Source: a bacterium
GTDB lineage: Bacteria; Desulfobacterota; Binatia; HRBIN30; CADEER01
Length of the DNA: 64,000 nt
NCBI GenBank assembly: GCA_019637795.1
Contig: JAHBUY010000002.1
Coordinates: forward strand, 434,001 to 498,000
Reading direction: 5' to 3'
Below, one piece after another: positions 6,993 through 30,155 of this stretch (the first letter of the stretch is position 1; each line of letters opens with the position of its first letter). A program made the translations under genes and the position numbers. The notes under the pieces were generated by a model, which was not told the DNA's origin, did no database searches, and saw only the letters and a list, made by a program, of their open reading frames with translations.

Positions 6993-7526
6993 ATGCCAAG
7001 AGCCGCAAACAGGAACGTTGTCGGAGCGGATGGGTTCGAGTTGCGAGAGGTCACTCGCCTCACGGAACTCTCGCCGGGAATGGTAGACTACCTCTGTCGA
7101 ATGGACATGGTGGTACCTCGGGGCCGCCGCGATCGCGGTAAGGGTCGACGGCGGCGATACACGTTCGCAGATCTGGTTCTGTTGCGGGTTCTTGGGCAGC
7201 TGCTGAAGTGCGGGGTAACAGTGGCCCGGCTCCGAAAAGCAATTCGCGCTCTGCGGGAGGAACACGACTTCGGTGACCCAAGGTCACTACCCGCGCAGAC
7301 CCTGATCACGGATGGCAGAACGATTTACCTCAAGAGCGGCACTACGCTCGAAGATCTCACCGCAGATGGACAATACGCGCTGGCATTTGTCCGGATCGAG
7401 TTAGTCTCAACAGATCTCCAGAAAACGATTGACGGCACCACACGCGCACGGAAGCGCACGCCCACAATAGCGCGCCCACGAGCGAGAGCGGCAGGTGCTG
7501 GTCAAAGTATCCGCACTGGGCCCTGA
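6993..7526 (+). CDS. MerR-like winged-helix regulator
   Basis: The N-terminal 80 residues form a MerR-type winged helix: REVTRLTELSPGMVDYLCR as the first helices, then RRRRYTFADLVLLRVL as wing and second helix pair. A middle segment (about 105-145) with TLITDGRTIYLKSG matches a small beta domain often attached to this kind of regulator. The C-terminal 30 residues are Arg/Pro-rich and disordered-looking. It lies directly upstream of, and in the same direction as, the NDT-like/AAA+/glycosylase operon, separated by a strong promoter at 7531. Inference: it controls itself through the dyad at 6965 and possibly the operon. The start has no clear ribosome site. Confidence 0.75.
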   Translation: MPRAANRNVVGADGFELREVTRLTELSPGMVDYLCRMDMVVPRGRRDRGKGRRRRYTFADLVLLRVLGQLLKCGVTVARLRKAIRALREEHDFGDPRSLPAQTLITDGRTIYLKSGTTLEDLTADGQYALAFVRIELVSTDLQKTIDGTTRARKRTPTIARPRARAAGAGQSIRTGP

Positions 7527-7530
7527 GGTG

Positions 7531-7559
7531 CTGTCAGCCTTCGCGTAAGGATGTATAAT
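7531..7559 (+). promoter_or_regulatory. Sigma70-type promoter of the NDT/AAA+/glycosylase operon
   Basis: CTGTCA at 7531-7536, a 17-base spacer, and a perfect TATAAT at 7554-7559. It begins 5 bases after the MerR-like gene stops and leaves a leader of about 120 bases before the ATG at 7689. It is the clearest consensus promoter seen in the element. Confidence 0.7.
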
Positions 7560-7645
7560 TAAACAGATGTTTTATCAACAATGCCAAAGGCCAACTGCCA
7601 TAATTCAAGTAGCTATTGGTCGGTTTCTTTTTGGCCAAATCGCTT

Positions 7646-7663
7646 GCACTAACGTTTTAGTGC
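7646..7663. promoter_or_regulatory. Inverted repeat in the operon leader
   Basis: GCACTAA-CGTT-TTAGTGC: 7-bp arms and a 4-base spacer, 26 bases before the start of the NDT-like gene and about 90 bases after the TATAAT box. It could be an operator or a small RNA hairpin in the leader. The leader also repeats TTGG/CCAA pieces around 7617-7637. Confidence 0.5.
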
Positions 7664-7688
7664 CTTTGGGCGATATCGAGGGACTGCC

Positions 7689-8297
7689 ATGATTACGGCG
7701 ACGGTTTCAGGAAGCTTTCATCGACACCTGCACGCGATCGAATCGGCGGTGCTCGAACTGACGGCTTTAGGGGTCCGCGTGCTTTCTCCGGCAGATCCCA
7801 GAATCGTTGGCGCGAACGGGGAATTTCTTTTCGTTGCCAGCGATCGAGTTCGGTCAGTACGGCTGGTGCAGGATCGACATCTACAGGCGATCGAGGCATC
7901 GGGTTTTCTCTGGCTGGTCGACCCGGACGGATACGTTGGCCAATCGGCATCGCTTGAGATTGGATTCGCGATCGCGCGCGGCATTCCGGTACTGAGCACG
8001 ACCCTGCCGTCCGACTTGACATTGCGCCAGTATGTGCACCAGGTATCCAGCGCACGCGCAGCACTCTCGATCGGCCGAGTCGCGTCGCCGACGTATCGGC
8101 GACAGCCGAATGGGTTCCTTATCGATCCACACGCGAGCATCGAACAGGCCCATGAAAGCCTGGAGCGCCTCTCCGATCATTTCGATACCGCGCGGCGAGA
8201 CCATTCGTATGACCCCGCCCACGATATAGAGCTAGAGTTTGGACTCCTCGCGGGATTTCTTCGTCGTTCGCCGGATGATGCTGAGCCATGGAGCTAG
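7689..8297 (+). CDS. Nucleoside 2-deoxyribosyltransferase-like protein
   Basis: The 202-residue protein has the Rossmann-like layout of the NDT/MilB family of N-glycosidases. A first strand and loop VSGSF (6-10) is followed by ALGVRVLSP (27-34), by WLVDPDGYVGQSASLEIG (75-92) with E90 in the position of the catalytic glutamate, and by ARGIPVL (96-102). In the family such enzymes cleave or exchange the base of a (deoxy)nucleoside or nucleotide; substrate here is unknown. The C-terminal 60 residues are helical and acidic. It is the first gene of a three-gene operon: the next gene starts 10 bases before its stop. The substrate might also be NAD-like, as in TIR-like relatives. Confidence 0.7.
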   Translation: MITATVSGSFHRHLHAIESAVLELTALGVRVLSPADPRIVGANGEFLFVASDRVRSVRLVQDRHLQAIEASGFLWLVDPDGYVGQSASLEIGFAIARGIPVLSTTLPSDLTLRQYVHQVSSARAALSIGRVASPTYRRQPNGFLIDPHASIEQAHESLERLSDHFDTARRDHSYDPAHDIELEFGLLAGFLRRSPDDAEPWS

Positions 8298-10237
8298 GTT
8301 TTGCCGCGCTCGAGGAGCTGAGGCGGTTCGTTGCTGAGATTCTTAAAGGACAGTCCGGCTCCCTAAGGCGGTACTTCAATCCCGACATACACGGGTTTCA
8401 GCACACCGGCGGCGAAAATAAGACCTCCCCGTCCATCGCCAGTACCGGCACCTGTGTGGTTGCGTTGCTGGCCACCGGGCGTTGGAACGACAAGGAGGCA
8501 CCGTGGCACGACGACGCCCCCGAACTCGCTGCCGCGATACTCTCAAAAGAGTGGACCAGTGCGGCGTTGGCCGCCAACAACGTGTTTAGCGTTGCATGGG
8601 TGCTTGAGACCATCACCGCCTTGGAGAATGCCGGGATAGACCTGCGCCTTGACGGAAAAGCCAAGCAACGGATCAGTCAAGCTGAGGAGATCCTCGTCGC
8701 TTCATTGGAGGATGGAAGTGCCGCAATCGAAGATTACCCCGCGTCAGCTTACGTAACGCAGCTGGCGGTCCGTGTGCTTGTGCGCCGCCAGAAGCTTGAG
8801 AACGCCGACCGCGTCCGGGAATGGGCACTTACCCAAATAACCATGCAAATCGCGCTGATTCTGAGTAAGAGCAGCGCATTGGATGTGTATACGCTCGCGT
8901 ATGCGACAATTCTTTTTGCAGCACTCTCTGAGCCTGCGAAGGTTTCGCCGCAGGAAAAGCGTATTGTAGATACTGCCATTGAGCAGCTCTTTGCGTCCCA
9001 ACTTCCAGATGGAAGCTGGCCACGAAGTCGGCCGTTGTTTCACTATCCGAGGGCGGGTAACGCCTACTGCTTTGAATACGAAATGCTAGTACAACTGCTC
9101 GAGACGTCGGCGTTGCAGGAAAACCTGTTGCGCCATATGCATTCCCTCAGAGACGCTGCATATGCACTTACCCGGAGCGCATTCCAGCTCGACGACGATC
9201 TCAACCGAGGGTGGGCTTCCGGCCATCATCCAAACTTAAAGGGACCGGAGTCATGGTCCACCGCATCGGTCTTCCACTTCCTATACTCGCTTGATCGTCT
9301 GATCGCGGAAGCAGTTCGGCGAGCGACCTTCACCTATTTGGATCGCGTCTACACCCAACCATCTAGGCCGAAGCCGACTTTCGCCGATTTCGCCCCACTT
9401 CTGTGGGATTCGGAGGTAACCTTCCCGGATGCGCACACGGAATCGCTTAAGAAAACTCTCTTCGAGCGTTTCGTCGAGCCTATAGCGCGAGGTGCCACAG
9501 AGGTCGAACTGGGCCGGCCACTGCCGAAAGGCACGAAGATGTCAGCCATATTGTTTGGCCCACCTGGAACATCCAAGACCCAGTTAGCTAAGCATATTTC
9601 TGAGTTTTTGGGCTGGCCACTTCTTGAGGTAGACCCGTCTCATTTGGTTCGCGAGGGAATGGATAGGATCCAAAAGGAAGCGAATGCGCTATTCAGCATG
9701 ATTGAGGCTGCGGAGCGTGTAGTCGTGTTTTTGGACGAATTTGATGAAATGGTGCGGGACCGTTCGGTCGCTGGATCAGAGGCGGAGTCCCGCTTCCTCA
9801 CAACGGCTATGCTGCCAAAGCTTAGCAGGATCAATGATCGGCGACGCGTGGTCTTTCTCCTGGCGACGAACTATATCGATAACTTCGATTTTGCGATCAG
9901 TCGTCCTGGGCGATTTGACGTTATTCTTCAGGTGATGCCGCCCACGACGAGCGAGAAGATGGCGAACCACAAGGATGTGGCGGACAAGCTACGGGGTCTC
10001 GGCATAAACTTGGGTACCGGTATCCATGATAAGTTGGCGGAGTTGACATTTGGTGAGTTCGAACGTCTCGCGGCGGACATACGATTGGCCTCTGACCAAC
10101 AAGCGGCAATCGCAGCTATAGAGTTGGCGCACGCGCAGTGTACTCTACAGCGACATTTGGGTGGGTCTTCTCCTCCAGCCGGCGACGAAACGTGGGCGGA
10201 ACGATCAAAGGCTCAGCATAGATACGTCCGGAGCTGA
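8288..10237 (+). CDS. AAA+ ATPase with N-terminal alpha/alpha-toroid (terpene-cyclase-like) domain
   Basis: Residues 1 to about 345 look like an alpha/alpha toroid of the squalene-cyclase/prenyltransferase type, with repeated LPDGSWPRSR (239-248) and GPESWSTASVFHFL (319-332) motifs. Residues 385-600 are a full AAA+ module: Walker A GPPGTSKT (424-431), Walker B VVVFLDEFDE (478-487), sensor ATN (526-528) and Arg finger RPGRFD (539-544), closest in look to the FtsH/ClpX-like or CDC48-like classic clade. The toroid may recognise a substrate while the ring remodels it. It overlaps the NDT-like gene by 10 bases and is followed after 2 bases by a DNA glycosylase, so the three products are probably made together. 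Confidence 0.75.
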   Translation: MELGFAALEELRRFVAEILKGQSGSLRRYFNPDIHGFQHTGGENKTSPSIASTGTCVVALLATGRWNDKEAPWHDDAPELAAAILSKEWTSAALAANNVFSVAWVLETITALENAGIDLRLDGKAKQRISQAEEILVASLEDGSAAIEDYPASAYVTQLAVRVLVRRQKLENADRVREWALTQITMQIALILSKSSALDVYTLAYATILFAALSEPAKVSPQEKRIVDTAIEQLFASQLPDGSWPRSRPLFHYPRAGNAYCFEYEMLVQLLETSALQENLLRHMHSLRDAAYALTRSAFQLDDDLNRGWASGHHPNLKGPESWSTASVFHFLYSLDRLIAEAVRRATFTYLDRVYTQPSRPKPTFADFAPLLWDSEVTFPDAHTESLKKTLFERFVEPIARGATEVELGRPLPKGTKMSAILFGPPGTSKTQLAKHISEFLGWPLLEVDPSHLVREGMDRIQKEANALFSMIEAAERVVVFLDEFDEMVRDRSVAGSEAESRFLTTAMLPKLSRINDRRRVVFLLATNYIDNFDFAISRPGRFDVILQVMPPTTSEKMANHKDVADKLRGLGINLGTGIHDKLAELTFGEFERLAADIRLASDQQAAIAAIELAHAQCTLQRHLGGSSPPAGDETWAERSKAQHRYVRS

Positions 10238-10239
10238 GA

Positions 10240-10815
10240 GTGCGTGCGGCAGAGGATTATTTGATTTCCAGGGATGTCGTACTCGGACGCATCATTCAGG
10301 CTTCTACCGATCGTTGGAACCCCGATCGCACAGAGGACCCGATGTGGGGCTTGGTCCGCATCGTGATCGCTCAGCAGATATCGACAAGCGCGGCAACAAC
10401 TATCGCGCAGAGAGTTGCCCGGGCATATCCGGAGCTTCTCAGCGGTGATCGACCGCGAGAAGGAATGAGAAGGTCCCGCTTGCGGAAATGCGGGCTTTCC
10501 CCGCGAAAGGCGCATTGCTGTTGTCAGCTCGTCCAGCGCATGACTGCGGAGGACTTTTCAACAGGATCTGACGACGCCATGGACGCATTGAGCGGCGTGA
10601 GGGGCATCGGTCCGTGGACGAGAGACATGTTTCAGATATTGGTGTTACGAAAGCCCGATGTACTGCCACTGGGCGACGCGGGCCTGCTGCGCGCTGTTCG
10701 AGTACACTACGGTACTGAAATCGCCCTGCACACCTTGGCGGAAGCCTGGCGACCCTTCCGATCTGTAGCGTGTTGGTACCTCTGGCGTTCCCTCGGTAAC
10801 GTGCCCCTCGGCTGA
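10240..10815 (+). CDS. HhH-GPD DNA glycosylase, AlkA type
   Basis: A base-excision DNA glycosylase of the helix-hairpin-helix GPD superfamily. Signature regions are LVRIVIAQQISTSAA (38-52), the hairpin LSGVRGIGPWTRDMFQI (117-133) and the catalytic aspartate D146 in LPLGDAGLL. No Fe-S cysteines follow, so it is the AlkA/MPG-II rather than the MutY/Nth kind. At 191 residues it lacks the AlkA N-terminal TBP-like domain. The GTG start has GGAG eight bases upstream and follows the AAA+ stop by 2 bases. In this operon it more likely attacks modified foreign DNA than performs general repair; that is inference. Confidence 0.85.
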   Translation: MRAAEDYLISRDVVLGRIIQASTDRWNPDRTEDPMWGLVRIVIAQQISTSAATTIAQRVARAYPELLSGDRPREGMRRSRLRKCGLSPRKAHCCCQLVQRMTAEDFSTGSDDAMDALSGVRGIGPWTRDMFQILVLRKPDVLPLGDAGLLRAVRVHYGTEIALHTLAEAWRPFRSVACWYLWRSLGNVPLG

Positions 10816-12006: not shown

Positions 12007-13182
12007 TCAGTCCGGGAGGCGGAAGGTTCTGGCGGAGAACGGTGGCGACGGCACGCCGTCCACCATGAGCTTCAGGTAGATGTGCCGGTTCGGGAGGTTG
12101 ATCATGTCGAGCGCCGAGAAGGTCGGCCCGAACTCCTGGGCGAGCAGGTCGGCATCCTCCGGCCCGACGCGGAAGCTCATGATGGTTCCGGCGTTGCCGA
12201 GGATCGCTTCCCTGACCAGCGGATCAAGCTGCGCCAGGTACTGGTGCGCGAGCACGAGGCCAACGCCGTACTTCCTGAGTTCCGATAGCATGCCGGCGAG
12301 GCTCAACGTGGTGAACGCGTGGAATTCGTCCAAGTAGACGAAGAAGTCGCGGCGGTCGTCTTCGGCAACATCGCTCCGGCTCATGGCCGCAACTCCCAAG
12401 CTCGTCACGATGAGCGCGCCGAGGAGCGTCGCCGTATCCTCGCCGATTCTTCCCTTGGCGAGATTGACGAGCAGGATCTTCCCGTCATCCATGATCCGCC
12501 GGAGATCGAGCATCCGCTCGGCCCTGGTGAGAATGCGGTGGAGGAGCGGATTGGCGAGAAAGGCGCCGACTTTGTTCTGGATCGGAGCGATCGCTTCGAG
12601 CCGGAACTTTGCCGGGTACTTCTCGTACTCCTTGAGCCAGAAGGCTCGGACCGGCTGGCTGCGCACTGCGGTCATCGCATGCCGTCGGTAGTCGTCGTCT
12701 GAGAGCAACCGCATAGCATCGGCAATCGTGGCGTGGGGTTGGTCGAGGAGCGCCAGGAAGGTATTCCGCACGATGTGCTCAAGGCGCGGGCCCCACGAGT
12801 CAGACCAGAGTTTTTTCATCACTTCGAGGAGTCCTGAGGCGGCAAGGGGTCGCTTGACGATCGGCACGCCAGCCAACGGGTTAACGCCGTAGGGCTGCGT
12901 AGGATCGGGCGCATCGAGGTAAACGAGATCGCCACGTCGATGTGCGGGCAAATGGCGTACGATCCGCTCGACGAGATCGCCGTGTGGATCGAGAACCGCC
13001 AAGCCTTGGCCGTGCGCGGCGTCCTGACGGATGAGTGTTTCAAGCAGGGACGACTTCCCGGTGCCGGTCTGCCCGATCACATACATATGGAACCGCCGGT
13101 CGGCGGTCTTGATGCCAAAGAGCTGATTCGAGTCGCGGAAGTCGGTGCGGCCGATGAAGGTGAGGCGGTCGTGCGGAATCAT
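12007..13182 (-). CDS. VirD4/TraG-like ATPase (short form)
   Basis: A 391-residue P-loop ATPase related to the one at the left edge. RRFHMYVIGQTGTGKSSLLE carries Walker A (about 37-44), VLDPHGDLVERI follows as in all relatives, and FFVYLDEFHAFTTLSLAG holds Walker B. A TraM-recognition-like segment LVLAHQYLAQLDP comes after. Family members are annotated as type IV secretion DNA-binding proteins. It lacks the linker and nuclease-like tail of the first ATPase. The start matches the usual beginning of this family although only a poor GAGG lies before it. It shares a divergent promoter region with the SWIM-finger gene. Confidence 0.85.
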   Translation of the reverse strand: MIPHDRLTFIGRTDFRDSNQLFGIKTADRRFHMYVIGQTGTGKSSLLETLIRQDAAHGQGLAVLDPHGDLVERIVRHLPAHRRGDLVYLDAPDPTQPYGVNPLAGVPIVKRPLAASGLLEVMKKLWSDSWGPRLEHIVRNTFLALLDQPHATIADAMRLLSDDDYRRHAMTAVRSQPVRAFWLKEYEKYPAKFRLEAIAPIQNKVGAFLANPLLHRILTRAERMLDLRRIMDDGKILLVNLAKGRIGEDTATLLGALIVTSLGVAAMSRSDVAEDDRRDFFVYLDEFHAFTTLSLAGMLSELRKYGVGLVLAHQYLAQLDPLVREAILGNAGTIMSFRVGPEDADLLAQEFGPTFSALDMINLPNRHIYLKLMVDGVPSPPFSARTFRLPD

Positions 13183-13282: not shown

Positions 13283-13335
13283 GGAAGACAGTCCTTTGAA
13301 CGGACGGATTCCACAACCCAGAGGAGGAAATGGAG

Positions 13336-14178
13336 ATGATCCATGACGAAGCACGGGATGAGCGCGCCCATAACGCCGCGCTCGTAATCGCGGGGACCGC
13401 TGATGGTTTCCGCGTCCATGCTCCGGCAGAGCCGAGGAAGATCTACCTCGTCTCGGGCGTGCCAGAGGAGCTGCAGTGCAACTGTCCAGAGTTCGGGCTG
13501 CACCGCCGAGAACCCGGCTGGCGATGCCGGCACATTCTGGCTGTCCACGACCGCTTCTTCGGCGGCAGCGGTGCCGATCACGATCCGCATGCTGCGCGCG
13601 AGCGGGCTGCGATCCAGGACGAAGGAAGTCCGCAGAACGGCAACGGCACGCGTCCGCCAGGGGGCGCCGCCCAGATGCTCTTGAAGCGGAGTGCCAGCCC
13701 CGACGGACGGATCGACTCTTTGTCGGTCGAGTTCTCGTGTCCGGTCGACGACGTCCCATCAGGAACGATTCAAACGACGGCCCGGCGCATGCTCCAGCTC
13801 CAAGCGGCCATCATCAGCGAGTTCGTGAAGTCGCCGATGGAGCCAACGAACGGCTCTCAACCTGGGAACGGAACGCATCGGAACGGCTCGCGCAACGATC
13901 CGGTCCCGGCGCGTCTCCTCGCGATCGGCGGCATGCCCGGCAAGTGGGGCCGGCGACTCTTCATCACCGTCGATGTTGACGGCGAGACCACCCGCATCTT
14001 CGGCAACCGCAAGCAGCTCGGCGACGCCCTCGTCGCTGCCGGACACGCCGCCCTCGTGAGAAACATCGCCGAGGGCGTGAGCCTCAATGTTGGCTGCCGC
14101 GTCGTGGCCAAGCCTACCGATGACGGCCGCTATCTGAACATCGTCGAGGTGCATCCGGCAGAGGAGCGTCGCCAATGA
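13336..14178 (+). CDS. SWIM zinc-finger protein
   Basis: Residues 46-70 contain the SWIM motif C-x-C...C-x-H (LQCNCPEF, then WRCRHILAV), a small zinc finger seen in SNF2/Zn nucleases, transposases and RecA-loader partners, binding DNA or protein. A low-complexity Asn/Gly/Pro stretch follows. The C-terminal 85 residues (KWGRRLFITVDVDGETTRIF onward) look like a compact beta domain, possibly OB-like. The second ATG at 13336 is preferred over 13330 because GAGGAGG is 8 bases away. Its stop overlaps the start of the Fe-S nuclease gene by 4 bases, which suggests the two act as a pair in processing DNA. Confidence 0.75.
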   Translation: MIHDEARDERAHNAALVIAGTADGFRVHAPAEPRKIYLVSGVPEELQCNCPEFGLHRREPGWRCRHILAVHDRFFGGSGADHDPHAARERAAIQDEGSPQNGNGTRPPGGAAQMLLKRSASPDGRIDSLSVEFSCPVDDVPSGTIQTTARRMLQLQAAIISEFVKSPMEPTNGSQPGNGTHRNGSRNDPVPARLLAIGGMPGKWGRRLFITVDVDGETTRIFGNRKQLGDALVAAGHAALVRNIAEGVSLNVGCRVVAKPTDDGRYLNIVEVHPAEERRQ

Positions 14179-14981
14179 CGCTGGCCACTGATGACGTTGT
14201 CCCTTCGAGGCGCGCCGAGGCACTGCCCTATCTCTCGCACTCGCGGGTCGCGAAGTACCTGCACTGCCCGGAGCAGTACCGACTCTACTACGTGAAGGGA
14301 CTTCGCCGCCGCATTCCGGATGCGAGCTTGGTCTTCGGGCAGGTGGTCCACCAGGCGCTTGCCGGCCTCTTCCAGAATGGTGAGGACCCGGTGGATGCTT
14401 TCACCAAGCTCTGGACGGAAGTGGAGAGCGCCGATCTCGTCTACGGCGTGCGCGAATCATGGGCCAAGCTGAAGGACATCGGACGTACTTGCCTCCAGAG
14501 GTTTGTCGACGAGGAACTGCCCAAGCTCCAGGACGTGACTGCGAGCGAGAAGCCGTTCCGCCTCATGGTCACGAGTCTCTGTCTGCCCTTCGTCGGTGTG
14601 ATCGACCTCACCGCTCGCCTGAACCAGAAGCGAACCGTAATCGACTTCAAGACCGCGGCCTCAGGCTACCAGGAGCACGAAGCCACACTATCGGATCAGC
14701 TAACCGCCTACCAGCTTGCTGAGCCCGAGGCCGAGCAGAGCGCGCTCTGCGTGTTCGTGAAGACCAAGGAGCCGCGGATCGACTGGCTCGTCTCGGAGCG
14801 CCAGCCCGACCAGGTCCTCGAATACGTGGAGAAGGTGGAAATCATCGCCCAAGCGATCAGCGCCGGCTTCTTCTACAAGCGACCCGGTCGCTGGTGCAGC
14901 TACTGCGATTTCCTGCCGCTCTGTCTGGGCGACCAGGCGAAGGTCGAGGAGACCCTGGTCCAGGTTGCTCCTCGCCCGTGA
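14175..14981 (+). CDS. PD-(D/E)XK nuclease with 4Fe-4S cluster, RecB/Cas4-like
   Basis: The 268-residue protein starts with LSHSRVAKYLHCPEQYRLYY (first cluster cysteine). It has GVIDLTAR and TVIDFKTA as the catalytic D and D-x-K of the PD-(D/E)XK core, a later QLTAYQLA motif typical of the RecB nuclease family, and CSYCDFLPLC near the end. The four cysteines match the Fe-S staple of AddB, Cas4 and similar exonucleases. Such enzymes resect DNA ends. No helicase domain is attached. It overlaps the SWIM gene by ATGA and ends at a strong terminator, so the two form a complete transcription unit. Confidence 0.85.
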   Translation: MTLATDDVVPSRRAEALPYLSHSRVAKYLHCPEQYRLYYVKGLRRRIPDASLVFGQVVHQALAGLFQNGEDPVDAFTKLWTEVESADLVYGVRESWAKLKDIGRTCLQRFVDEELPKLQDVTASEKPFRLMVTSLCLPFVGVIDLTARLNQKRTVIDFKTAASGYQEHEATLSDQLTAYQLAEPEAEQSALCVFVKTKEPRIDWLVSERQPDQVLEYVEKVEIIAQAISAGFFYKRPGRWCSYCDFLPLCLGDQAKVEETLVQVAPRP

Positions 14982-14989
14982 AACACCAC

Positions 14990-15024
14990 GAGCCAGTTGG
15001 CGAAACGCCGCCTGGCTCTTTTTT
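14990..15024 (+). terminator. Intrinsic terminator after the SWIM-nuclease operon
   Basis: GAGCCAG and CTGGCTC form the outer stem, GGCG-AAA-CGCC an inner stem, and six Ts follow at 15019-15024. It begins 8 bases after the nuclease stop. Confidence 0.85.
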
Positions 15025-15106
15025 GTGGGATACAGGGCAGGGTCGCCAGCTCACAGTCCCTCGCTCCTGGAGAAGGATCGGTCCGTCGTGGTATTCCGGA
15101 ACGCCG

Positions 15107-17113
15107 ATGGACGAGAACTTTGTCTGGAGAATCCAGAGGAACACCTATCTTCCGAAGACCAAGGCGCTCGCGCCGCTCTTCGAAGCGGTGGTGAATTCTC
15201 TGCATGCCACCGAGGAGGCAGGGAACCCGTCCAATGCAACGATTGACGTGATGATCGACCGCGGAGCGCAGGCGTCGCTCATGCCAAACTCGCCGCCTCC
15301 CGACATCACCGGATTCACGATCCGCGACGACGGCATCGGCTTTACCGACGAACACTTCCGTTCCTTCAACACGACCGACACCGACCAGAAGGCGGCCAAG
15401 GGCGGGAAGGGTGTCGGTCGCCTTCTGTGGCTGAAGGCATTTGAGCAGGCTGCCGTCGATAGCGTCTTCATGAACGGCGCATCGACGTTCCTCCGGCGCC
15501 AGTTCCGGTTTGTTCTCCAATCCGATCCCGTACAGGGAGGCGAGCGCCCCGAGATGGCGGACGGCCCGCGGTCGACGACCGTTCGCTTGATCGGACTCCG
15601 CGAAGGTATGAGCGTACCCGCGCAGGCAGACACAATCGCTCGCCACCTGCTGGCGCACTGCCTGCTCTACCTTCTCGACGCCTCGTGCCCGCGGCTCACG
15701 GTGCGGGATACGTGGAATGGCGACTCGTTCTCATTGAACCAGATGCTGGCCGAAATGCTCGCCTCATCCGAAGGTGGCGAGTTTGACGTTCAGGACCAGA
15801 CGTTCGCCGTCCGGCTCATCCGCCTCCGTTCCCGGGACAGGAAGGCTCACGCGATCCACTACTGTGCGGACAACCGGCCAGTGGTTTCCGAAAAACTGGA
15901 CGCTCTTCTTGAGGACTTGGACGGCAATCTGCTCATGGACGGCGGAGCAGAGACCTGCGTTGCCGTGGCCCTGGTGTCGAGCAGGTATCTGGACGAGCGT
16001 GTGAATGCCGAGCGAACGGAGTTTACGATTCCCAAGAAGACGATCGACGGCAACCTTGGGATCAAGGATCTTTCCTGGATGGAGATCGAGGAGGCGGTGG
16101 CCAATCGTCTTTCGGAACTCTTGGCCGATGAGTTGAAAAGTCTGCGTCAGACCAAACTCCACGGCATCGTCGAGCGCATTCAGCAAACGGTGCCGGAGTG
16201 GCGTTACCTCACCGTCCATGCTGCGGAGCGCCTCGCCCGCCTTCCTCCCACTCTCTCCGATCCGAAGTTCGAAGCCGCTCTCTTCCAAGTGTCACGCGAA
16301 CTCATGGAGGACACCAGTCAGAAGGTGAAGGCCATTACGAGCCGTGACGGCGCGATGGCCGACGCGACAATCGAAGCCGACTACGCCCAGTTGATCGACA
16401 CGCTGACGGCTATCAATGAAAAGGACCTGGCCGAGTACGTCCGTCATCGGCACGCGATCCTTGACCTGCTCGACCAGGCTCTTCGTCGTCAACCAGATGG
16501 GAAGTTCGTCTATGAGGATCGGGTTCACCAGATCATCTGTCCGCGCTTCGCCACCTCCGACGACCCGGAACACCTCCGGCAGAACCTATGGCTCCTCGAT
16601 GAGCGGCTGAGCTACCATCGATTTCTGGCATCCGACTTGCCGATGTCTTCATTCGGTGATGTCGAAGTAGCTAGCAAGAAAAAGCCAGATATCTATATTA
16701 CGTTTGACGAGCCGGCAGTATTCGCTGAAGGTGAACGACCGTTCCATTCTGTGACTATCGTGGAGTTCAAACGGCCCGAGCGAAGCGATTACACCGAGAA
16801 GGACAATCCGGTGTGGCAGGTATATGAGTACATCGACCTGCTCCGAACCGGCACGGTGCTCGATCGTGACCAGCGTCCAATACACCTCGACGACGCGATC
16901 CGGTTCTTCTGCCATATTGTCGCCACCGTAAACCAGAAGCTGGTGCAGGCGGTTCGCGAGCTGGGCATCCGCCCTGGCATCGACCAGCGATTGCTTTCTG
17001 GATACAGCGAGAGCAGACGGGCGTGGGTTGAGATTGTCGACTACGATATGTTGCTCGCCAACGCCCGACTGAGAAACCGAATGCTCTTTCAAAAGGCCGG
17101 GCTTCCATCGTGA
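15107..17113 (+). CDS. GHKL-type ATPase fused to a PD-(D/E)XK-like nuclease
   Basis: The N-terminal third is a Bergerat (GHKL) ATP-binding fold: N box EAVVNSLHA (26-34), G1 box DDGIGF (74-79) and G2 box GGKGVGR (99-105), as in Hsp90, MutL and MORC proteins. A long helical middle follows. Near the C-terminus, KKPDIYITFD (D527) and TIVEFKRP (E553, K555) form a probable PD-(D/E)XK site. An ATP-gated nuclease is thus likely, a plan seen among defence and DNA-repair proteins. Start at 15107 is chosen because the GHKL fold begins right after it; the longer frame would overlap the previous gene and its terminator. No good ribosome site is visible. Confidence 0.75.
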   Translation: MDENFVWRIQRNTYLPKTKALAPLFEAVVNSLHATEEAGNPSNATIDVMIDRGAQASLMPNSPPPDITGFTIRDDGIGFTDEHFRSFNTTDTDQKAAKGGKGVGRLLWLKAFEQAAVDSVFMNGASTFLRRQFRFVLQSDPVQGGERPEMADGPRSTTVRLIGLREGMSVPAQADTIARHLLAHCLLYLLDASCPRLTVRDTWNGDSFSLNQMLAEMLASSEGGEFDVQDQTFAVRLIRLRSRDRKAHAIHYCADNRPVVSEKLDALLEDLDGNLLMDGGAETCVAVALVSSRYLDERVNAERTEFTIPKKTIDGNLGIKDLSWMEIEEAVANRLSELLADELKSLRQTKLHGIVERIQQTVPEWRYLTVHAAERLARLPPTLSDPKFEAALFQVSRELMEDTSQKVKAITSRDGAMADATIEADYAQLIDTLTAINEKDLAEYVRHRHAILDLLDQALRRQPDGKFVYEDRVHQIICPRFATSDDPEHLRQNLWLLDERLSYHRFLASDLPMSSFGDVEVASKKKPDIYITFDEPAVFAEGERPFHSVTIVEFKRPERSDYTEKDNPVWQVYEYIDLLRTGTVLDRDQRPIHLDDAIRFFCHIVATVNQKLVQAVRELGIRPGIDQRLLSGYSESRRAWVEIVDYDMLLANARLRNRMLFQKAGLPS

Positions 17114-17184: not shown

Positions 17185-17517
17185 ATGACCTATACGGAAG
17201 GGACGCTCACCGGCCCGACGGGCAACCAGGGCGTCCTGCGGTTTCTCGTGGACAGCGGCGCCGTCTACACGCGCGTTGCGCACAATGTTCGGAAGGCCCT
17301 CGATCTCACCCCGAAACGGACCGTCACCTTCAGTCTGGCCGACGGCACTCCGCTCCGAATATCACATCGCGCTTCCCCAGGCGACGGCCACACGCCGGTC
17401 ATCCTGGGCGAACCGGGCGGCGAGGCGCTCCTCGGGACCGTGACGCTCGAAGAACTCGGCCTCGTCCTTCATCCGTTCAAGCGCACGTTTGAACCGATGC
17501 GCATGCTCCTCGCCTGA
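17185..17517 (+). CDS. Retropepsin-like aspartic protease (small, with scarred middle)
   Basis: A 110-residue clan AA protease: FLVDSGAVYTRV contains the catalytic D-S-G (usually D-S/T-G), TFSLADGT and LLGTVTLEELGLVL fit the second half, and the end PMRMLLA is typical. Family members act as dimers. Between LADGT and GHTPVILGE the sequence is shorter than in relatives as I remember them, and the shifted frame there reads EYHIALPQ, which matches the expected family sequence. This points to two compensating frameshifts, so activity may be impaired. No strong ribosome site is seen; a perfect terminator follows. Confidence 0.7.
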   Translation: MTYTEGTLTGPTGNQGVLRFLVDSGAVYTRVAHNVRKALDLTPKRTVTFSLADGTPLRISHRASPGDGHTPVILGEPGGEALLGTVTLEELGLVLHPFKRTFEPMRMLLA

Positions 17518-17528
17518 CGGAGCACCAC

Positions 17529-17558
17529 GCCGCGACCCCGTGTCGCGGCTTTTTCTTT
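17529..17558 (+). terminator. Intrinsic terminator after the aspartic protease gene
   Basis: GCCGCGAC, loop CCCGT, GTCGCGGC: a perfect 8-bp stem at 17529-17549, followed by TTTTTCTTT. It stands 11 bases after the stop codon. Confidence 0.9.
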
Positions 17559-17609
17559 GCGAGCGAATCCTATCCGGAACGTCGGTCCGGGCACTGGCCA
17601 AGCTCAGTG

Positions 17610-19187
17610 TCACCAATTTCTTCTCCAGTTGCCTGCGCGTTGCCGCACCCATGTGAGGAGATCTCCCGCAAGCCGCCGCAGGTCTCCCTGAAAGATCGCC
17701 GCGAGGGAACCGAAAACGATAGCGGCGAGAACGCTCCACCAAAGCTGGTTGATGCTGACCTGCAGCGAGTACAGGGATGTCTTCAGGCTGAGCCGCCGTT
17801 CCACCCGGTCCTTCGCCAATTGCAGGCACCTCTCCAGTCTCGCCGACTGATTGTCCAGCTCCGTGAGATCCGCGCGGAGAACGCGGCTCGTATCGTAAGG
17901 GACGTTGGGACCCAAATTGTATCGTAGGGCCAGCTTGACGAACTGCGTCCACAGACCGGATTCCAAGAGGTGCGCACCGTGACGCTCGCGGAATCCTTCG
18001 GTCGCCGCCACGAAGTCATCGGCACCACGTCCCTTCTTCTCGAAGACCGGCACGTCGTCCAAGACCTTCATCATGTCACTGGTCTTCTCGCGAAAAATGC
18101 GAACGGCTGCCTCCAAGTTCTCTCCTTCCACCAGCCTTTCTTCGAGGTTGGTCTCAAGAGCCGCAATCGCGTCCCCCGACTCAGCCGATCGCAGGGCGCG
18201 CAGGTCGGCATCGAACGCGTCACACGAATACGCGCGCGCGGCGGCCTGATAGTGCGGGACGACGACGTGGAGGAAGAGAATGAACCGGGCCACGCGCTCT
18301 ATCTCGCGACTCAGTGGATTCTGGAGCATCCACACCGACCGCTGGGGGTCGGGCAGAATCGGGGGCTTGTTGGCAACGACTGCGCGGACGAGCTCCGATA
18401 GCTCGGGATGTGCAATGAACGTCTGGCCGTTGAACATAAAGTAGGCGTGATCGACGTGCGGGAGGACGCCCATCGAGACCAGATCGCTCGCCGTCCAGTA
18501 CTGTGTCATGTCCGCGCCGTCGTACTCGTGCATCAAGTACTCGAACTTCGTGGGGTCATCGATATGCGTTGCGAGCAGGAGAGGAATCTTCATGCTCGCA
18601 TACGGCTCGCGTAACGTCTTCAGCAGGATCGCCAGCGGAGAGTCTGCGAGAAAATTGGCCGACACAACCCCGAGAAGGCGCTTCGTCTCCTGCTGATAGT
18701 CCTCCCGATCGTGAAACGCATTCCTGTGGCGATCGGTGATCACGAGGACGAAGAGCGGGTAGCGACGGAGTTCAAGGTCAGGTTGGTCCTTCAGTGAGAA
18801 ACTCACCGACGGCCCCCAACTGTCTTCCGAATCGTGAACCGACTCCGGCACAACCAGATCGCTGGACCGTAGCCGTTCCCCCAGGAGTCGCCGGCCGTTT
18901 TCTTTGAAATCAAACGGGAAGCTTGGCGCCATGGCAAACCAGCGGTCGTAAGTGGTGCGGTCGCCAAAGACAGCCGGCCGGTCCAGACCGAACACATCGA
19001 GGCGCTCGATGTCGCCACCAATCTCCACGAGTTCTCCGTCGACCGTGCATGGCCACAGGGCGTAGACGACGCCGGGTGTTTGCGCGAAGAGATCGATATC
19101 AGACGCGGACTCCAGCGCTGTCCCTGTGACGCTGAACCCGCACGCGACCAGAAAACCAAGAACGGTGATAAGAGAAAGACGGCTCAA
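17610..19187 (-). CDS. Putative lipoprotein with C-terminal membrane helix, unknown function
   Basis: A 525-residue protein with a signal sequence ending in the lipobox LVAC (13-16), a large periplasmic-looking body, and one hydrophobic segment near the C-terminus (about 473-495) followed by basic residues. No known domain was recognised. The middle holds a charged helical stretch (about 330-390 and 430-465) that may form a coiled coil. It is divergently placed to the trypsin-like protease gene with about 77 bases between, an arrangement that suggests joint regulation. It could present a substrate or inhibitor for that protease; this is only suggested by position. Confidence 0.6.
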   Translation of the reverse strand: MSRLSLITVLGFLVACGFSVTGTALESASDIDLFAQTPGVVYALWPCTVDGELVEIGGDIERLDVFGLDRPAVFGDRTTYDRWFAMAPSFPFDFKENGRRLLGERLRSSDLVVPESVHDSEDSWGPSVSFSLKDQPDLELRRYPLFVLVITDRHRNAFHDREDYQQETKRLLGVVSANFLADSPLAILLKTLREPYASMKIPLLLATHIDDPTKFEYLMHEYDGADMTQYWTASDLVSMGVLPHVDHAYFMFNGQTFIAHPELSELVRAVVANKPPILPDPQRSVWMLQNPLSREIERVARFILFLHVVVPHYQAAARAYSCDAFDADLRALRSAESGDAIAALETNLEERLVEGENLEAAVRIFREKTSDMMKVLDDVPVFEKKGRGADDFVAATEGFRERHGAHLLESGLWTQFVKLALRYNLGPNVPYDTSRVLRADLTELDNQSARLERCLQLAKDRVERRLSLKTSLYSLQVSINQLWWSVLAAIVFGSLAAIFQGDLRRLAGDLLTWVRQRAGNWRRNW

Positions 19188-19264
19188 CGGCGTTGCCTCC
19201 CGGACAATCTTGAGCGAAATGGTGTAGCAGGTTTCGAGTGGCGAGAAGGGAGGTGGAGTCGGTC

Positions 19265-20116
19265 GTGCCGCGAATCGAGAACGTGGAGGACGCGGCGCTC
19301 GACGCCGCGCTGCGCTTCATCCGCAACCACACCTCACCACTCTTCCTCGACGGCGCGTTGGCAGGGTCGGGGACCTTCATCTCGTGGGATGATCAATTCG
19401 GCATCCTCACCGCGCACCACGTGCCGCACAACCCGTTGGACTCCGCCAGGCGCTTCGACTTTTCGGCAAGCAGTGGTCAGAAGCTCGGCTTGTCGCTCGT
19501 CGAGTACGCCCATCGTTTCGAGCTTGAGATGCGCTATCTCGGGGTGTCGGATATTGCCCTTCCGATCGACCCCGCCGATCCATGTCGGGGTCCCGACCTG
19601 GCGGTGATCCGCCTTGGCAACAAGGCGTCGGTCCAGGATATCGAAGCGCGTAAATCGTTCTATCGTCTCAGCTATCGAACTGCTGAACGCCTCGAAGCTT
19701 CGCTGCGCGCTGATGGGATCTTCGCCATCTGCGGTGCGGCGAAGGAAGAGGAACGTCAGGCCGAACCGGAACTCGGATTCAGCGAGGTCACCGTGGAGAA
19801 CCTGTGCACCTACTATGGGGGTCTTGTTCCACCGCACAGCCGCTGGTTCGAACGTGATGGGTACGAATACATCGAGATCGATGTCCGGTACCCTGGAGTT
19901 GAGGATCCTCCGAAGAAGTTCGGCGGCGTCAGTGGCGGTGGCCTTTGGCAGATTGCCGTGCAGCCTTGTCCCGACGATCCCACCCGCTTCGTCGTCTTCG
20001 ATGACCCGGTGCTCGCCGGGGTGGCGTTCTGTCAAGGCGTCGTTGATCCCTCCCGCGGATTTCTTCGGTGTCATGCGGGGGGAGTTCCCTACCGCCAAGT
20101 GCTCACCGGGCTGTAG
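19265..20116 (+). CDS. Trypsin-like serine protease
   Basis: A chymotrypsin-fold peptidase with all three catalytic residues in order: H52 in GILTAHHV, D110 in RGPDLAVIRL and S222 in GGVSGGGLW. The Ser motif differs from the classical GDSGGP but is usual in trypsin-like domains of bacterial conflict systems. No signal peptide is seen, so it is probably cytoplasmic. The GTG at 19265 is chosen because GGGAGGTG lies about 9 bases upstream; the GTG at 19238 lies before that site. It is divergent from a lipoprotein gene and is not attached to any recognisable sensor domain. Confidence 0.75.
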   Translation: MPRIENVEDAALDAALRFIRNHTSPLFLDGALAGSGTFISWDDQFGILTAHHVPHNPLDSARRFDFSASSGQKLGLSLVEYAHRFELEMRYLGVSDIALPIDPADPCRGPDLAVIRLGNKASVQDIEARKSFYRLSYRTAERLEASLRADGIFAICGAAKEEERQAEPELGFSEVTVENLCTYYGGLVPPHSRWFERDGYEYIEIDVRYPGVEDPPKKFGGVSGGGLWQIAVQPCPDDPTRFVVFDDPVLAGVAFCQGVVDPSRGFLRCHAGGVPYRQVLTGL

Positions 20117-20325
20117 TTATGCTCAATCGCGTTTGAGACAGGAGGAAGGTTCTGTTGCGATCGGATTACGTAGTTCGAGATATGCGGACCTTCAACGGAG
20201 GCTTCTTCGTCCTGAAGCGAGGTGTCCGAGACTAAGCTGCAAGTCGCGGTGATTCTGCCTCCGAATCCACGTCCCTGTGGCGCCACTAGCGCGATGGGCT
20301 ACGTCGCCGTGGGTATGACGACCCT

Positions 20326-22215
20326 CTATGCCGCCCTCGACAACTTCCTCCGTCTTTTCCTTCGGAAGAACCGCTCTACGCTCGATACATCTGGGAACAC
20401 CTCTCTGTTCAGGTCCCAGTAGTGCCACACGCACACCTTCCGGATGATGCGATCCCAGGTTCGAACGTCGTCCCGTAATCCCCGCCCAGTGGGACGAGCG
20501 AGCGCGCTCGCGTGATCTCGTCCAGTCGTAGCGCGAGAATCCGTAGGTTCGAGAGGGCCGCCAGGGTCGTCGTCCGCAACCTGAGATCCATCGAAGAAGG
20601 AGAAGGGCTCACGCGCGTCAATCCTGACCGTTTTCGCTTGGAGCCTCAGGTTCGAACCGACTTCGAGCACGAGAGCCTTCTTCTCTGGTGGAGCGCTTCT
20701 CTCGAAGCGGTTCTGCAGTCCTTGAGCCAGGGTGAAGGTTGCGAGGGCGCGGTGACGCGCGTCCGCAATCCGATTGTCGCGCAGCATGGCTGCTTGAAGG
20801 CGTTCCTTCCGTTTCACGAGAGCGGAGCGCTGAACCGCGTACTCCTCGTCGCTTAGCAGGCTGCCGTCGACATTGGCTGGCGACGTTTTCAACGCGAGAA
20901 GTTGCTGCAGCCGTGTCGTGGTCTCGCCGAGGGCCTGCCGGCGCGACTCGGAAGCGGCGACCGTGATCGCGGCGAGCTCCGCGCAGAGTTCGGGAGCCCT
21001 GCGGATCGCATACTCCTTGAGGGATTCGGGAATGGTGATCCGCCCAAGAAAGGCGGCGATCTGCTCCGCGATCTGATCTTCGGTGAGACTCCGTTCGGCG
21101 CATCGGGGAGTCTTCCGCCGCGTGCAGTGGTAGTAGGTGTAGATGAGGCGCTTCGCGTGCGGCATCTGTTCGATGCGCGCTGCGCAGGAGGGACAGCTCT
21201 CCTTGCCACGTAGAGAGAACTTCGTCCGGCATTGCGCGCAGATGAGCTGTTCCTTTTCCTCGGCGGTAACCGCCGCGCCGCAGGTTCCGCACTTCAAGAG
21301 GCCGGCGAAGGGGAACTGGCGCTTGCGGGCTCGCGGGTTACCTTTCCGACCCAGGCGGGCCTGCACGATTCGGAACTCGTCCTCCGAGATGATTGGCGTA
21401 TGGCGTCCCAGCCACCAGGCTCCGCTCCCTTGCGGGTACTCGAACCAACCGTAGTAAAAGGGATTCGTCAGAATGCGGTAGACGGTGCTTCGAGAGAGAG
21501 GCCGATTGCCGAGGCGGCGCATGCGTCGCGTGCGGAAACCCCATTCGTTGTTGGCGAGCTTCCAAATCTGGGGCGGCGTGTAGCGGCCACTGAGCGCCGC
21601 TTCCCAGATGCGCTTCACAAGTGGAAGGCGGACCGGATCGGTGACAATGCAAGTCTCGCCGTTCTCGGGAGAGCGCCAGTTCAGGTAGCCGAGCGGGGCC
21701 ACTGACGGGTACCATCCCTTTTCGAGCTTAGCTCGCAGGCCGCGCTTCACGTTGCGGCTCAGATCCTCGATATACTTCTGCGCCATGCCGAACTCGATGT
21801 ACATAAGGATGGTGTTGTCATCGGCCTGGCGGAAGCTTTGGGTCGGCGTCAAGATCTCTACCCCGTGCTGCTTCATCGACCAGATGACGGCACCGCCGTC
21901 GATGGGGTTCCTCGCCAGGCGGTCCAGCTTCCAGCAGATGACGCCATGCGCCTCGCCGCGATAGATTCGCTGCATCATCACGTTGAAAACCGGTCGGCCA
22001 GGTTCTTTGGCCGAGCGCGCCTCAGTCAGGACCTCGACAATGTCGAGCGACCGAGAGGAAGCAAGGCGGGCAAGTTCCGCCTGTTGCGATTCGATTGAGA
22101 GCACTTGGCGGTCTTCCGCCTCGGTCGATTTGCGGCAGTAAATGAAGAATCGTGGCATGTCATCGGAAATGGTTCTTGCCTCCTCATGGTAAGAGCGCAG
22201 TCGAATCGTTGTCAA
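20326..22215 (-). CDS. Large serine recombinase (second one)
   Basis: N-terminal resolvase domain with catalytic serine in [14 protein letters not shown] (S30 if counted from the TTG start), KLDRLARNP helix and [12 protein letters not shown]; then a recombinase domain and a zinc beta-ribbon (KCGTCG, ICAQC, CPSCA, YHCTRR). Such enzymes integrate and excise elements at att sites without tyrosine-type homology. The TTG start overlaps the stop of the small upstream gene. GAGGAGG is better spaced for an internal ATT codon, and an ATG lies 20 bases after it, so the true start is uncertain. The last 90 or so codons have weaker codon bias than another frame, hinting at a 3' frameshift. Confidence 0.85.
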
Positions 22216-22385
22216 AGTTCGACCTGTGGATCATCGACTAGGTCGACCGCATCGTGCAGGAGGAGCGCCACCAACCGCACCAGGCGCCCGGCGTGCTCGG
22301 TTGCCTCGCTTTCGGAGATTTCCCGTCCGAACTCGCGGGCGTAGATCTCCCGATATTCGCGGACCGCTTCTCGGCTCAGGTTCAT
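22212..22385 (-). CDS. Small acidic protein upstream of the serine recombinase
   Basis: A 57-residue protein, [20 protein letters not shown] at the start, followed by a [15 protein letters not shown] helix. It resembles the short conserved proteins of the E-F/Y-G-x-E-I/L-S-x-x-E-A type that sit near recombinase genes in varied bacteria. Two or three helices are predicted from the pattern, with an acidic tail. Its TGA shares two bases with the TTG start of the recombinase gene, so translation is probably coupled. Function unknown; a partner or regulator of the recombinase is possible. No ribosome site is seen before it. Confidence 0.6.
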
Positions 22386-22417
22386 CGGAACAGCGTACCC
22401 GTCCGCAGTGAGCGGGG

Positions 22418-22485
22418 AAGACGGCGGAATGTGCCGCCAGGTACATGCCGCTCCGTCTTTGCCTCGCTCGCTACTGCCGTACGCT
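22418..22485. promoter_or_regulatory. Second copy of the dyad/promoter box, upstream of the primase gene
   Basis: AAGACGGCGG (22418-22427) and CCGCTCCGTCTTT (22448-22460) form an imperfect dyad. TTTGCC overlaps the right arm (22458-22463), and TACGCT (22480-22485) follows after 16 bases. The layout matches the box at 13214-13282 base for base in the right arm. The primase ATG is 7 bases past TACGCT, so transcripts would have almost no leader. Confidence 0.55.
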
Positions 22486-22491
22486 GAGCCC

Positions 22492-23454
22492 ATGACACAC
22501 ATCGACGATTTGGCTGCAGTGGCCGTCGGCTTCCATGAAGCGCTGCCCGACCGCATCCGTGAGTATCTGAACGGTCGGGGCATCCCTGATGGCATCATCT
22601 CCCGATACCGCCTCGGCTGGAACGGGCGACGGATCACGATCCCGATCACGAACCGCGACGGAATCGTCTCCTTCTTCAAGCTCGCCAAGGACCCGGCGGA
22701 TGCGAGCGACGCTCCGAAAATGCTCGTGAACGCCGGTGGCTCAGTGGAGCTCTACGGCTGGGAACGAGTACTCGCGAAGACGAGCCCGCTCGTGATCTGC
22801 GAGGGGGAGTTCGACCGGCTGGTTTTGGAATCCCGTGGCTTTCCGGCTGTGACCTCGACCGGCGGCTGCGGCGTCTTCCGCAAGGAGTGGGCGAAGGAGT
22901 TTGCCGAGATCCGGGAGGTCTACATCTGCTTCGACAACGACGAACCGGGCCGTGACGGTGCTCAGCGGGTTGCGGAATTGATTCCGTACGCGAAGATCGT
23001 CCGCTTGACCGACGACGTTGGCCCCGCCGGTGACATCACCGACTTCCTCGTCCGCCTCGGACGCTCGAACGACGACTTCGTGGATCTCCTCAAGACGGCC
23101 GTGCCGGCGCAGAAGAGTTCGCGTCCGCCACGTGATCGGTCGCCCCGAGCTCACGAACCCGACTCTCCGCTGGCGCGGCGCGTCGCGCGTCTCAAATCAT
23201 CGCTCTCCATCGTCGAGGTGATCGAGCCCTACGTGACCCTCCGCATCGGCCACGGTGTGCTTCGCGGGCACTGCCCGTTCCACCAGGACGACACGCCGTC
23301 CTTCACCGTCTACCCGGCCACCGGCACCTTCCACTGCTTCGGCTGCCGCATACACGGCGATGCAATCAGGTTCCTCATGGAGGCGGCGCACCTCACCTTC
23401 TACCAGGCGCTCGAAGCGCTCGAATCTCACCAACGCCATGGCCGAGCAGCCTGA
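22492..23454 (+). CDS. Primase-like protein with Toprim first and CHC2 zinc finger last
   Basis: A 320-residue DnaG-related protein. Residues 98-185 form a Toprim domain with the acidic motifs VICEGEFD (E104) and YICFDNDEPGRDG (D148, D150). A basic Pro-rich linker (205-230) follows, then a CHC2-type zinc ribbon with ligands C261, H264, C282 and C285 and the strand GTFHCFGC. In cellular DnaG the zinc ribbon is N-terminal and Toprim is central, so the order is permuted and the DnaG N-terminal catalytic subdomain is not evident. It overlaps the ATPase gene downstream by 17 bases, giving an element-encoded replication pair. Confidence 0.8.
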   Translation: MTHIDDLAAVAVGFHEALPDRIREYLNGRGIPDGIISRYRLGWNGRRITIPITNRDGIVSFFKLAKDPADASDAPKMLVNAGGSVELYGWERVLAKTSPLVICEGEFDRLVLESRGFPAVTSTGGCGVFRKEWAKEFAEIREVYICFDNDEPGRDGAQRVAELIPYAKIVRLTDDVGPAGDITDFLVRLGRSNDDFVDLLKTAVPAQKSSRPPRDRSPRAHEPDSPLARRVARLKSSLSIVEVIEPYVTLRIGHGVLRGHCPFHQDDTPSFTVYPATGTFHCFGCRIHGDAIRFLMEAAHLTFYQALEALESHQRHGRAA

Positions 23455-24775: not shown

Positions 24776-24908
24776 CGTTGGGGGACTTTGCCGGGGCGAT
24801 GTGGTCGGCAGGCGCCGTCATTGCGGCGCCTTTCTCTCCCTCCCGAACGATCGTGCGCCCCCGCGGCTGATCCGTCGCTACGTCACCCTATGTCCCCCAA
24901 CGTCCCCC
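24760..24908. repeat. Two inverted triplets of a GGGKGAC heptamer with 10-bp period
   Basis: On the plus strand GGGGGAC, GGGTGAC and GGGGGAC start at 24760, 24770 and 24780. On the minus strand the complements GTCACCC, GTCCCCC and GTCCCCC start at 24882, 24892 and 24902. Each unit is exactly 10 bp from the next, so all lie on one face of the helix. The two triplets are inverted around a terminator hairpin, and share a perfect 13-bp inverted repeat, GACGTTGGGGGAC (24774-24786) and its complement (24892-24904). Iteron-like origin or a regulator array are the likely roles. Confidence 0.7.
24811..24837 (+). terminator. Intrinsic terminator after the primase-helicase operon
   Basis: GGCGCCG, loop TCATTG, CGGCGCC: a perfect 7-bp stem at 24811-24830, followed by TTTCTCT. 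It sits between the two heptamer triplets. Confidence 0.7.
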
Positions 24909-24938
24909 GGACTTGTCCGCCAAACCTCGGTGTCGCCG

Positions 24939-25946: not shown

Positions 25947-26020
25947 CGCTGACGATCGGGTCGGACCCAGCTGTAAGTTTCACTGGATTGATGCCGTTCC
26001 TTGGCGCCCGTCGGCAAGGT

Positions 26021-26048
26021 GGGAAATTCCCTTACGGGATTTCCCTTA
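26021..26048. promoter_or_regulatory. Nested dyad and direct repeat in the divergent region before the XRE gene
   Basis: GGGAAAT (26021-26027) and ATTTCCC (26039-26045) are perfect inverted arms with CCC/GGG just inside, and TTCCCTTA occurs twice (26028-26034 region and 26041-26048). It lies between the divergent OmpA-like and XRE genes, so it may be the operator of the XRE protein. Confidence 0.45.
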
Positions 26049-26191
26049 TCGAGCGCGACTCCGTGGTGGTAGGCACGATCGCGACCGATGAAGCTGACTT
26101 GCCACTCTCGGCAACTTTCTCCGTCGTGACGGCCGCGCGTGCAGCGGTACGATGAAGAAAAGGTCTCACACAAACCAATCCCCATCGCTCT

Positions 26192-28361: not shown

Positions 28362-28388
28362 GCGTCGATCCTGCGCTACGAAATCGTT

Positions 28389-29054: not shown

Positions 29055-29273
29055 ACAACTATTAGTCTAGGCGAAGTGGGAGTCGCGGTAAACGCGCGCC
29101 GCGGGGATTAGAGCCGCCATCTTTCATATTGACGGTGCAAATTGGAGGCGAAGAGGGTACCGGAGTCCTGGTGATTCTGTGTCGTACGGAAACGTCAGGG
29201 AGGTCCTCTTTAACCGTGGCCCAGGTGCAGCGCATAGTCATGCGTTTGAATCTACACCGCTTCCTATATGGAG

Positions 29274-30155
<882 letters not shown>

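Follow-up and report, generated by a model that had tools for sequence, protein, structure and literature searches.

The window, a 64-kb stretch of DNA corresponding to C2:434001–498000 of a 6.16-Mb assembly, carries three tightly packed forward-strand genes. Their products are a predicted N-deoxyribosyltransferase (NDT)-like protein (7689–8297; 202 amino acids (aa)), an ATPase with an N-terminal toroid (residues ~1–346) and a C-terminal classical AAA module (residues ~408–600), hereafter toroid-AAA (8288–10237; 649 aa), and an AlkA-type HhH-GPD DNA glycosylase (10240–10815; 191 aa, GTG start). A preliminary description of this DNA had singled these genes out as a candidate new defence operon. 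The layout that it gave was correct: the first two open reading frames (ORFs) overlap by 10 bases and the ATPase and glycosylase genes lie 2 bases apart, spacing that implies co-translation. GC content at third codon positions is 0.61–0.63 in all three ORFs, and their codon-position GC pattern is that of real, expressed genes. The novelty lies less in the trio as such than in its ATPase, one of a rare family whose genes keep company with those of nucleotide-altering enzymes.

Upstream of the operon, a gene for a MerR-type helix-turn-helix protein (6993–7526, forward strand; PF13411, E = 1e-6) ends 162 bases before the NDT-like gene; it was correctly recognized in the preliminary description and is a possible local regulator. 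The same description proposed a consensus promoter: a well-placed forward-strand site at 7531–7559 (CTGTCA-17-TATAAT) agrees with the consensus at 10 of 12 positions, but the two promoter-like sites found in the region are no more than the 2.1 expected from shuffled sequence.

The ATPase is a classical AAA protein, matching PF00004 over residues 421–549 (E = 4.7e-23) and retaining Walker A (424–431), Walker B (~479–486), the sensor residue N528 and the RPGRFD arginine fingers (539–544); its nearest solved relatives are of the Cdc48/VAT/AFG2 types. Such Cdc48-type proteins dominate the Foldseek E-values for the whole ATPase. In a structure model of moderate confidence (mean predicted local distance difference test score (pLDDT) 64), residues 1–346 superpose on (alpha/alpha)6 toroids, with cellobiose 2-epimerase (Z 18.7, 318 residues, root-mean-square deviation 4.4) and squalene-hopene cyclase (Z 17.3) both exceeding the level of Z ~13 about which the tool cautions for helical proteins; as far as the model can be trusted, the N-terminal domain is confirmed as an (alpha/alpha)6 toroid. 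The most conserved toroid residues (D199, W244, G308-W309, S311 and T325) could line a pocket, and the stretch QLPDGSW at 238–244 resembles the QW motif found in terpene cyclases. In an alignment with VAT, the pore loop (VDPSHLVREGM) has no counterpart of the aromatic residue in the second VAT domain, and the ATPase may not thread proteins.

Membership of the toroid-AAA family was set by a profile built from the toroid region only, and not by the generic AAA domain, because an alignment-based scan with the ATPase brought mostly unrelated AAA proteins; a single-protein ATPase scan of genome contigs and a tblastn search of plasmids with the ATPase N-terminus returned no matches. The N-terminal profile recovered nine members including the window protein, and Walker A, Walker B, sensor 1 and the arginine fingers are invariant in all nine. 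A nucleotide enzyme on the same strand adjoins the ATPase gene in eight of them, the ninth (L024, Mycolicibacterium) lying at a contig edge. The partners are of four types. In the window the order is NDT-like gene, toroid-AAA, glycosylase; in a Verrucomicrobia locus (L023) the ATPase gene overlaps by 8 bases a gene for a PurZ-like adenylosuccinate synthetase, with a deoxynucleoside kinase gene and an AIPR gene downstream. On a Parabacteroides plasmid (L005) ThyX, AAA, HIT and MazG-type genes follow one another with spacings of 1–3 bases or with overlaps, and DHFR comes next. On Rhizobium and Sinorhizobium plasmids (L006, L007) and three viral contigs (L103, L104, L105) the ATPase gene is followed by one for a DUF4406-like NDT protein, which in L103 has no Pfam match and was placed by alignment with the other DUF4406-like partners. 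The window protein is nearest to that of L023 in the tree, and similarity between the window MerR-like gene and the small gene upstream of the L023 pair was not detectable. Since the two NDT-like pairings sit on different deep branches and no similarity is detectable between their NDT-like families, the pairing of ATPase with NDT-like enzyme probably arose twice.

Toroid-AAA genes are very rare. Among sampled genomes they occur in 1 of 395 from the phylum of the window (the window copy itself) and 1 of 241 from the Verrucomicrobia phylum (the member already known), and in none of 385 from the alphaproteobacterial class or 394 from the Bacteroidota phylum, two samples that contain no known positive and so bound the frequency loosely. 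This sparseness fits accessory, horizontally moved genes.

PurZ is known from phages that rewrite their own DNA with it. The N-terminus of the L023 synthetase reads GGQYGSEGKGK, with Ser at a position occupied by Asp in canonical PurA and by Ser in the PurA-like protein 7vf6. In PurZ of phage S-2L, S23 follows Y21-G22 and is among the residues unique to PurZ (PMC8342488); because the Tyr-Gly-Ser of PurZ stands where PurA has Asp, the bacterial synthetase paired with the ATPase in L023 looks PurZ-like by sequence. Downstream of this pair and beside the deoxynucleoside kinase gene lies a gene (L023:8855–11761) whose product, 968 aa long, combines a PHP domain with a C-terminal kinase-like P-loop.

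Other settings hint at defence. In L104 lambda-family portal and gpA terminase genes flank the AAA/NDT pair, which is encoded on the strand opposite to theirs, a usual site for cargo. The DUF4406-like partner of the Rhizobium type has a second module without a Pfam match that is more conserved than its NDT domain (46–57% vs 29–38%) and ends in GxTSHIADVxRKAxxPA, a motif that we take to resemble the His domain of phosphoenolpyruvate (PEP) synthase. As a stand-alone protein this PEP-synthase-like module adjoins dGTPases that match the PADLOC anti-phage dGTPase (E = 1.7e-124 and 2.4e-117), once after a phage-type integrase (L186:1462–4440) and once near a cytosine methylase (L190:3605–6347). The module also occurs among phage genes in four further loci (L188, L189, L191, L192).

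The NDT-like protein itself has no direct Pfam or PDB match, and its predicted identity comes only through its relatives. The closest, on a Miltoncostaea plasmid (L009), is 43% identical over 105 aa, and other plasmid relatives come from Nostoc and Streptomyces. Four of eight aligned relatives match Nuc_deoxyrib_tr (PF05014; best E = 3e-8), and the top PDB match of the family profile is a non-significant one to an N-deoxyribosyltransferase (E 0.23). The protein carries GS at 8–9, D62, DPDGYVG at 78–84 and E90, of which E90 is invariant in the family alignment (motif GxxxxxEIG) and D62 among the three closest relatives; in our own alignment D62 and E90 correspond to D80 and E104, the catalytic pair of DNPH1 (PMC10603095). 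It thus appears to resemble DNPH1/RCL and the NDT family (PF05014) in its fold signature and Asp/Glu pair but differs in lying below Pfam detection, and a single-sequence AlphaFold model (pLDDT 36) was too poor for fold assignment. Viral contigs and phages gave no match to the NDT-like protein, two additional viral scans were also empty, and a search of 198 genomes of the window's phylum returned the window copy alone. Another pairing of an ATPase with an NDT-like protein occurs in Miltoncostaea, where the NDT-like gene starts 8 bases after a RadA-like ATPase gene (L009:2613–4651). Two Streptomyces plasmids (L180:504–3381 and L181) have a methyltransferase gene, a UDG-superfamily glycosylase gene and an NDT-family gene in a row within an apparent biosynthetic cluster, perhaps for self-resistance to a base-modifying product.

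The third protein is an HhH-GPD glycosylase of the AlkA type, as judged by its HhH hairpin (from residue 119), the Asp at the catalytic position (D146) and a match to PDB 2h56 over nearly its full length (residues 9–187; E = 8.6e-19); it also matches the glycosylase model NF007641 (E = 1.5e-7) and scores just below the Pfam HhH-GPD cut-off (23.8 vs 26.2 bits). It shares the HhH-GPD domain, the GIGPWT hairpin and the catalytic-position Asp with AlkA-type DNA-3-methyladenine glycosylase 2, but is short, has no AlkA N-terminal domain and shares its operon with an AAA and an NDT-like gene. Its closest plasmid relatives (42.5%) lie within a SacI-type restriction-modification cassette on Aeromonas and Comamonas plasmids (L167, L168), where the AlkA-type glycosylase accompanies a SacI-family restriction endonuclease and an adenine methylase. 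All three products are as the preliminary description named them. It called them complete by motif, and E90 and D62, the AAA nucleotide-binding and finger motifs, and D146 are all present.

The operon had also been placed on a mobile element, and both ends of that element could be located. It is a 49.2-kb element of the serine-integrase type (window ~−17404 to 31792) inserted in a host moxR gene, of which the 3′ part (residues 86–293) lies left of the window at C2:415978–416601 and the 5′ part (residues 1–91) at C2:465779–466051. These boundaries are defined by the split gene, because the joined flanks restore an intact 293-aa moxR ORF, 88% identical to a complete moxR copy carried on the element (29274–30155, reverse strand). 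At the right junction, the 5′ fragment of the interrupted gene (31792–32051, reverse strand; the 3′ fragment is 49.2 kb away) is next to a large serine integrase gene (30284–31798, forward strand; PF00239, E = 5e-32; PF07508, E = 1.2e-14). With an integrase and with both ends at moxR, the element carries the operon as cargo. GC content is 57% in the operon, 61–62% in the remainder of the element within the window and 73% on the host side. A second serine recombinase (20326–22215) and two TrwB/VirD4-like ATPases (24–2036 and 12007–13182) are also on the element. Left of the window it encodes a large polymorphic toxin-like cargo protein, a 2327-aa protein of the RHS/TcdB-middle/SpvB type with a C-terminal Tox-REase-7 domain (L172:6391–13374, C2 ~420391–427374). 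At window 13330–17113, overlapping genes encode a SWIM zinc finger protein, a Cas4-like PD-(D/E)XK nuclease and a GHKL ATPase of 739 aa, the C-terminus of which looks nuclease-like (VEFKRP); together they may be a further uncharacterised set for DNA processing or defence.

No described system with these parts was found in the open-access literature. The NDT-like protein and the glycosylase match no known defence family, and defence models match the AAA protein only within its generic AAA domain. The nearest parallel is RADAR (PMC9994260). There an AAA+ ring with an extra helical domain stands next to an enzyme that alters mononucleotides and, when phage infects, can control it; the window operon would share this two-part logic. 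RdrA, however, carries its extra lobe at the C-terminus and has ring insertions of its own, whereas here the toroid precedes a CDC48-like AAA domain; RdrB is an adenosine deaminase, whereas the partner here has a predicted N-glycosidase fold, and models of RdrA and RdrB match none of the three proteins at E ≤ 1. By analogy, the control logic would be most like that of RADAR without the operon being a member. IetAS has a similar type of AAA protein (PADLOC IetA, E = 1e-16, AAA part only), but the N-terminal domain of the ATPase differs and neither the operon nor its two adjoining genes encode the subtilisin-like IetS or another serine protease. CBASS with TRIP13 (Cap6) was set aside, the TRIP13 model matching the AAA domain only and no CD-NTase or HORMA protein appearing among the neighbours scanned. 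An NDT-fold N-glycosidase serves as the defence effector in Retron-Eco1-type systems (Carabias 2024, as cited in PMC12548924); the NDT-like fold is probably shared, but the partner here is an ATPase, and no reverse transcriptase was found in the neighbouring ORFs scanned by Pfam, a search that did not extend to non-coding RNA. Brig1 and Brig3, the latter in a two-gene operon, are DNA glycosylases that excise modified phage bases (PMC11078745, PMC13160076). Brig1 belongs to the UDG superfamily and Brig3 resembles AAG, folds from which the HhH-GPD/AlkA-type fold of the operon glycosylase differs.

Gene order, domains, intact motifs, carriage on a 49-kb element and recurrent adjacency in four partner types are observed. 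On this basis we favour, tentatively and with doubt slightly outweighing belief, the reading that the operon encodes a mobile system in which an AAA protein controls an enzyme acting on nucleotides, its most likely purpose being to counter phages or mobile elements. By analogy with RADAR, the toroid-AAA protein would sense infection or a metabolite and switch on its neighbour, the AAA ring holding or activating the nucleotide enzyme and the toroid sensing a ligand or docking the partner. Once infection sets in, the NDT-like enzyme would use E90 and D62 to hydrolyse or exchange the base of (deoxy)nucleoside monophosphates, which would deplete or poison the pool for phage DNA synthesis. The glycosylase could remove the matching abnormal base from DNA, either that of the phage or, as self-protection, that of the host; alternatively, it may be an accessory repair enzyme.

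Defence, inferred here from genes and their contexts, is about as likely as not, and several points weigh against this reading. The suggestion of a new defence operon was upheld in its products, in carriage on an element and in the recurrence of toroid-AAA beside nucleotide enzymes on plasmids and prophages, but not in the trio: the exact combination of NDT-like protein, toroid-AAA and glycosylase was found at no other locus, and what recurs is the ATPase with a variable nucleotide enzyme. The co-occurrence on which that suggestion was made to depend thus fails for the trio but holds for ATPase plus NDT-like protein, a pair that recurs with another NDT-like family (DUF4406). Treating the two NDT-like groups as one family was rejected (hhalign probability 0.9%, E = 0.06). 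Because the two plasmid and three viral members with DUF4406-like partners form one clade (five of nine), the independent associations number four, and one of these, the ThyX-HIT-MazG-DHFR context, could be ordinary nucleotide metabolism. No known defence genes adjoin the operon among the element genes scanned, weak matches aside. AlkA-type glycosylases are usually repair enzymes, classically for alkylation damage, and the glycosylase is a local addition to a core of toroid-AAA and nucleotide enzyme.

The main rival, nucleotide sanitation or repair, is somewhat unlikely: the NDT-like protein would hydrolyse damaged or modified deoxynucleotides ahead of their incorporation, the glycosylase would remove like lesions from DNA and the AAA protein would regulate or remodel, protecting the host from alkylation or modified nucleotides and not from phage. 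DNPH1 hydrolyses 5-hydroxymethyldeoxyuridine monophosphate in the nucleotide pool and the glycosylase SMUG1 deals with the same base, 5-hydroxymethyluracil, in DNA, a precedent for such a division of labour. The NDT fold includes DNPH1, whose D80/E104 are matched by D62/E90 (PMC10603095; own alignment), the Streptomyces plasmids likewise place an NDT-family gene beside a UDG-superfamily glycosylase, and alkylation repair is the classic role of AlkA-type enzymes. Sanitation nevertheless leaves unexplained the PurZ-like, ThyX or dGTPase-linked partners, the prophage sites and the rarity of the AAA relatives.

Those partners might instead be read as makers of non-standard deoxynucleotides (a PurZ-like source of the 2-aminoadenine precursor, a ThyX-like enzyme and base exchange by an NDT-like enzyme) that toroid-AAA assists in modified-nucleotide biosynthesis or DNA marking, with the glycosylase policing the modified base, an interpretation that we judge improbable. 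Phage Z-DNA clusters pair PurZ with a MazG-fold enzyme, much as L005 pairs ThyX with a MazG-type protein, and NDT enzymes are able to exchange bases. The L023 partner carries the Tyr-Gly-Ser of PurZ (PMC8342488). However, none of the genes adjoining the window operon encodes a modified-base polymerase, kinase or hydroxylase, and ThyX-HIT-MazG may be plain thymidylate metabolism. Least probable of all is that unrelated accessory genes for salvage, protein remodelling and alkylation repair came together by chance on the element: at no other locus does the glycosylase accompany toroid-AAA and its nearest plasmid relatives belong to a restriction-modification cassette, but chance adjacency is opposed by the implied co-translation and by the presence of an AAA gene with a nucleotide enzyme in eight of nine loci.

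Returning to an AAA-controlled defence module, a broader and distinctly more doubtful proposal is that toroid-AAA proteins constitute an undescribed class of mobile immune systems, in which the ATPase is the shared sensor-controller and the enzyme that alters deoxynucleotides can be swapped (NDT-like, PurZ-like, ThyX/HIT/MazG, or DUF4406 NDT-like with its phosphotransferase-like module), the window locus adding a glycosylase that would attack DNA bases besides the pool. If this is true, a second AAA-driven nucleotide-altering strategy would stand beside RADAR, and the presence of a PurZ-like partner on a bacterial chromosome would be remarkable on its own account. The toroid-AAA N-terminus provides a search handle for a family missing from the PADLOC library used, and a conserved ATPase with swappable enzymes would mean that each partner predicts its own chemical effect on the nucleotide pool, one that can be tested.

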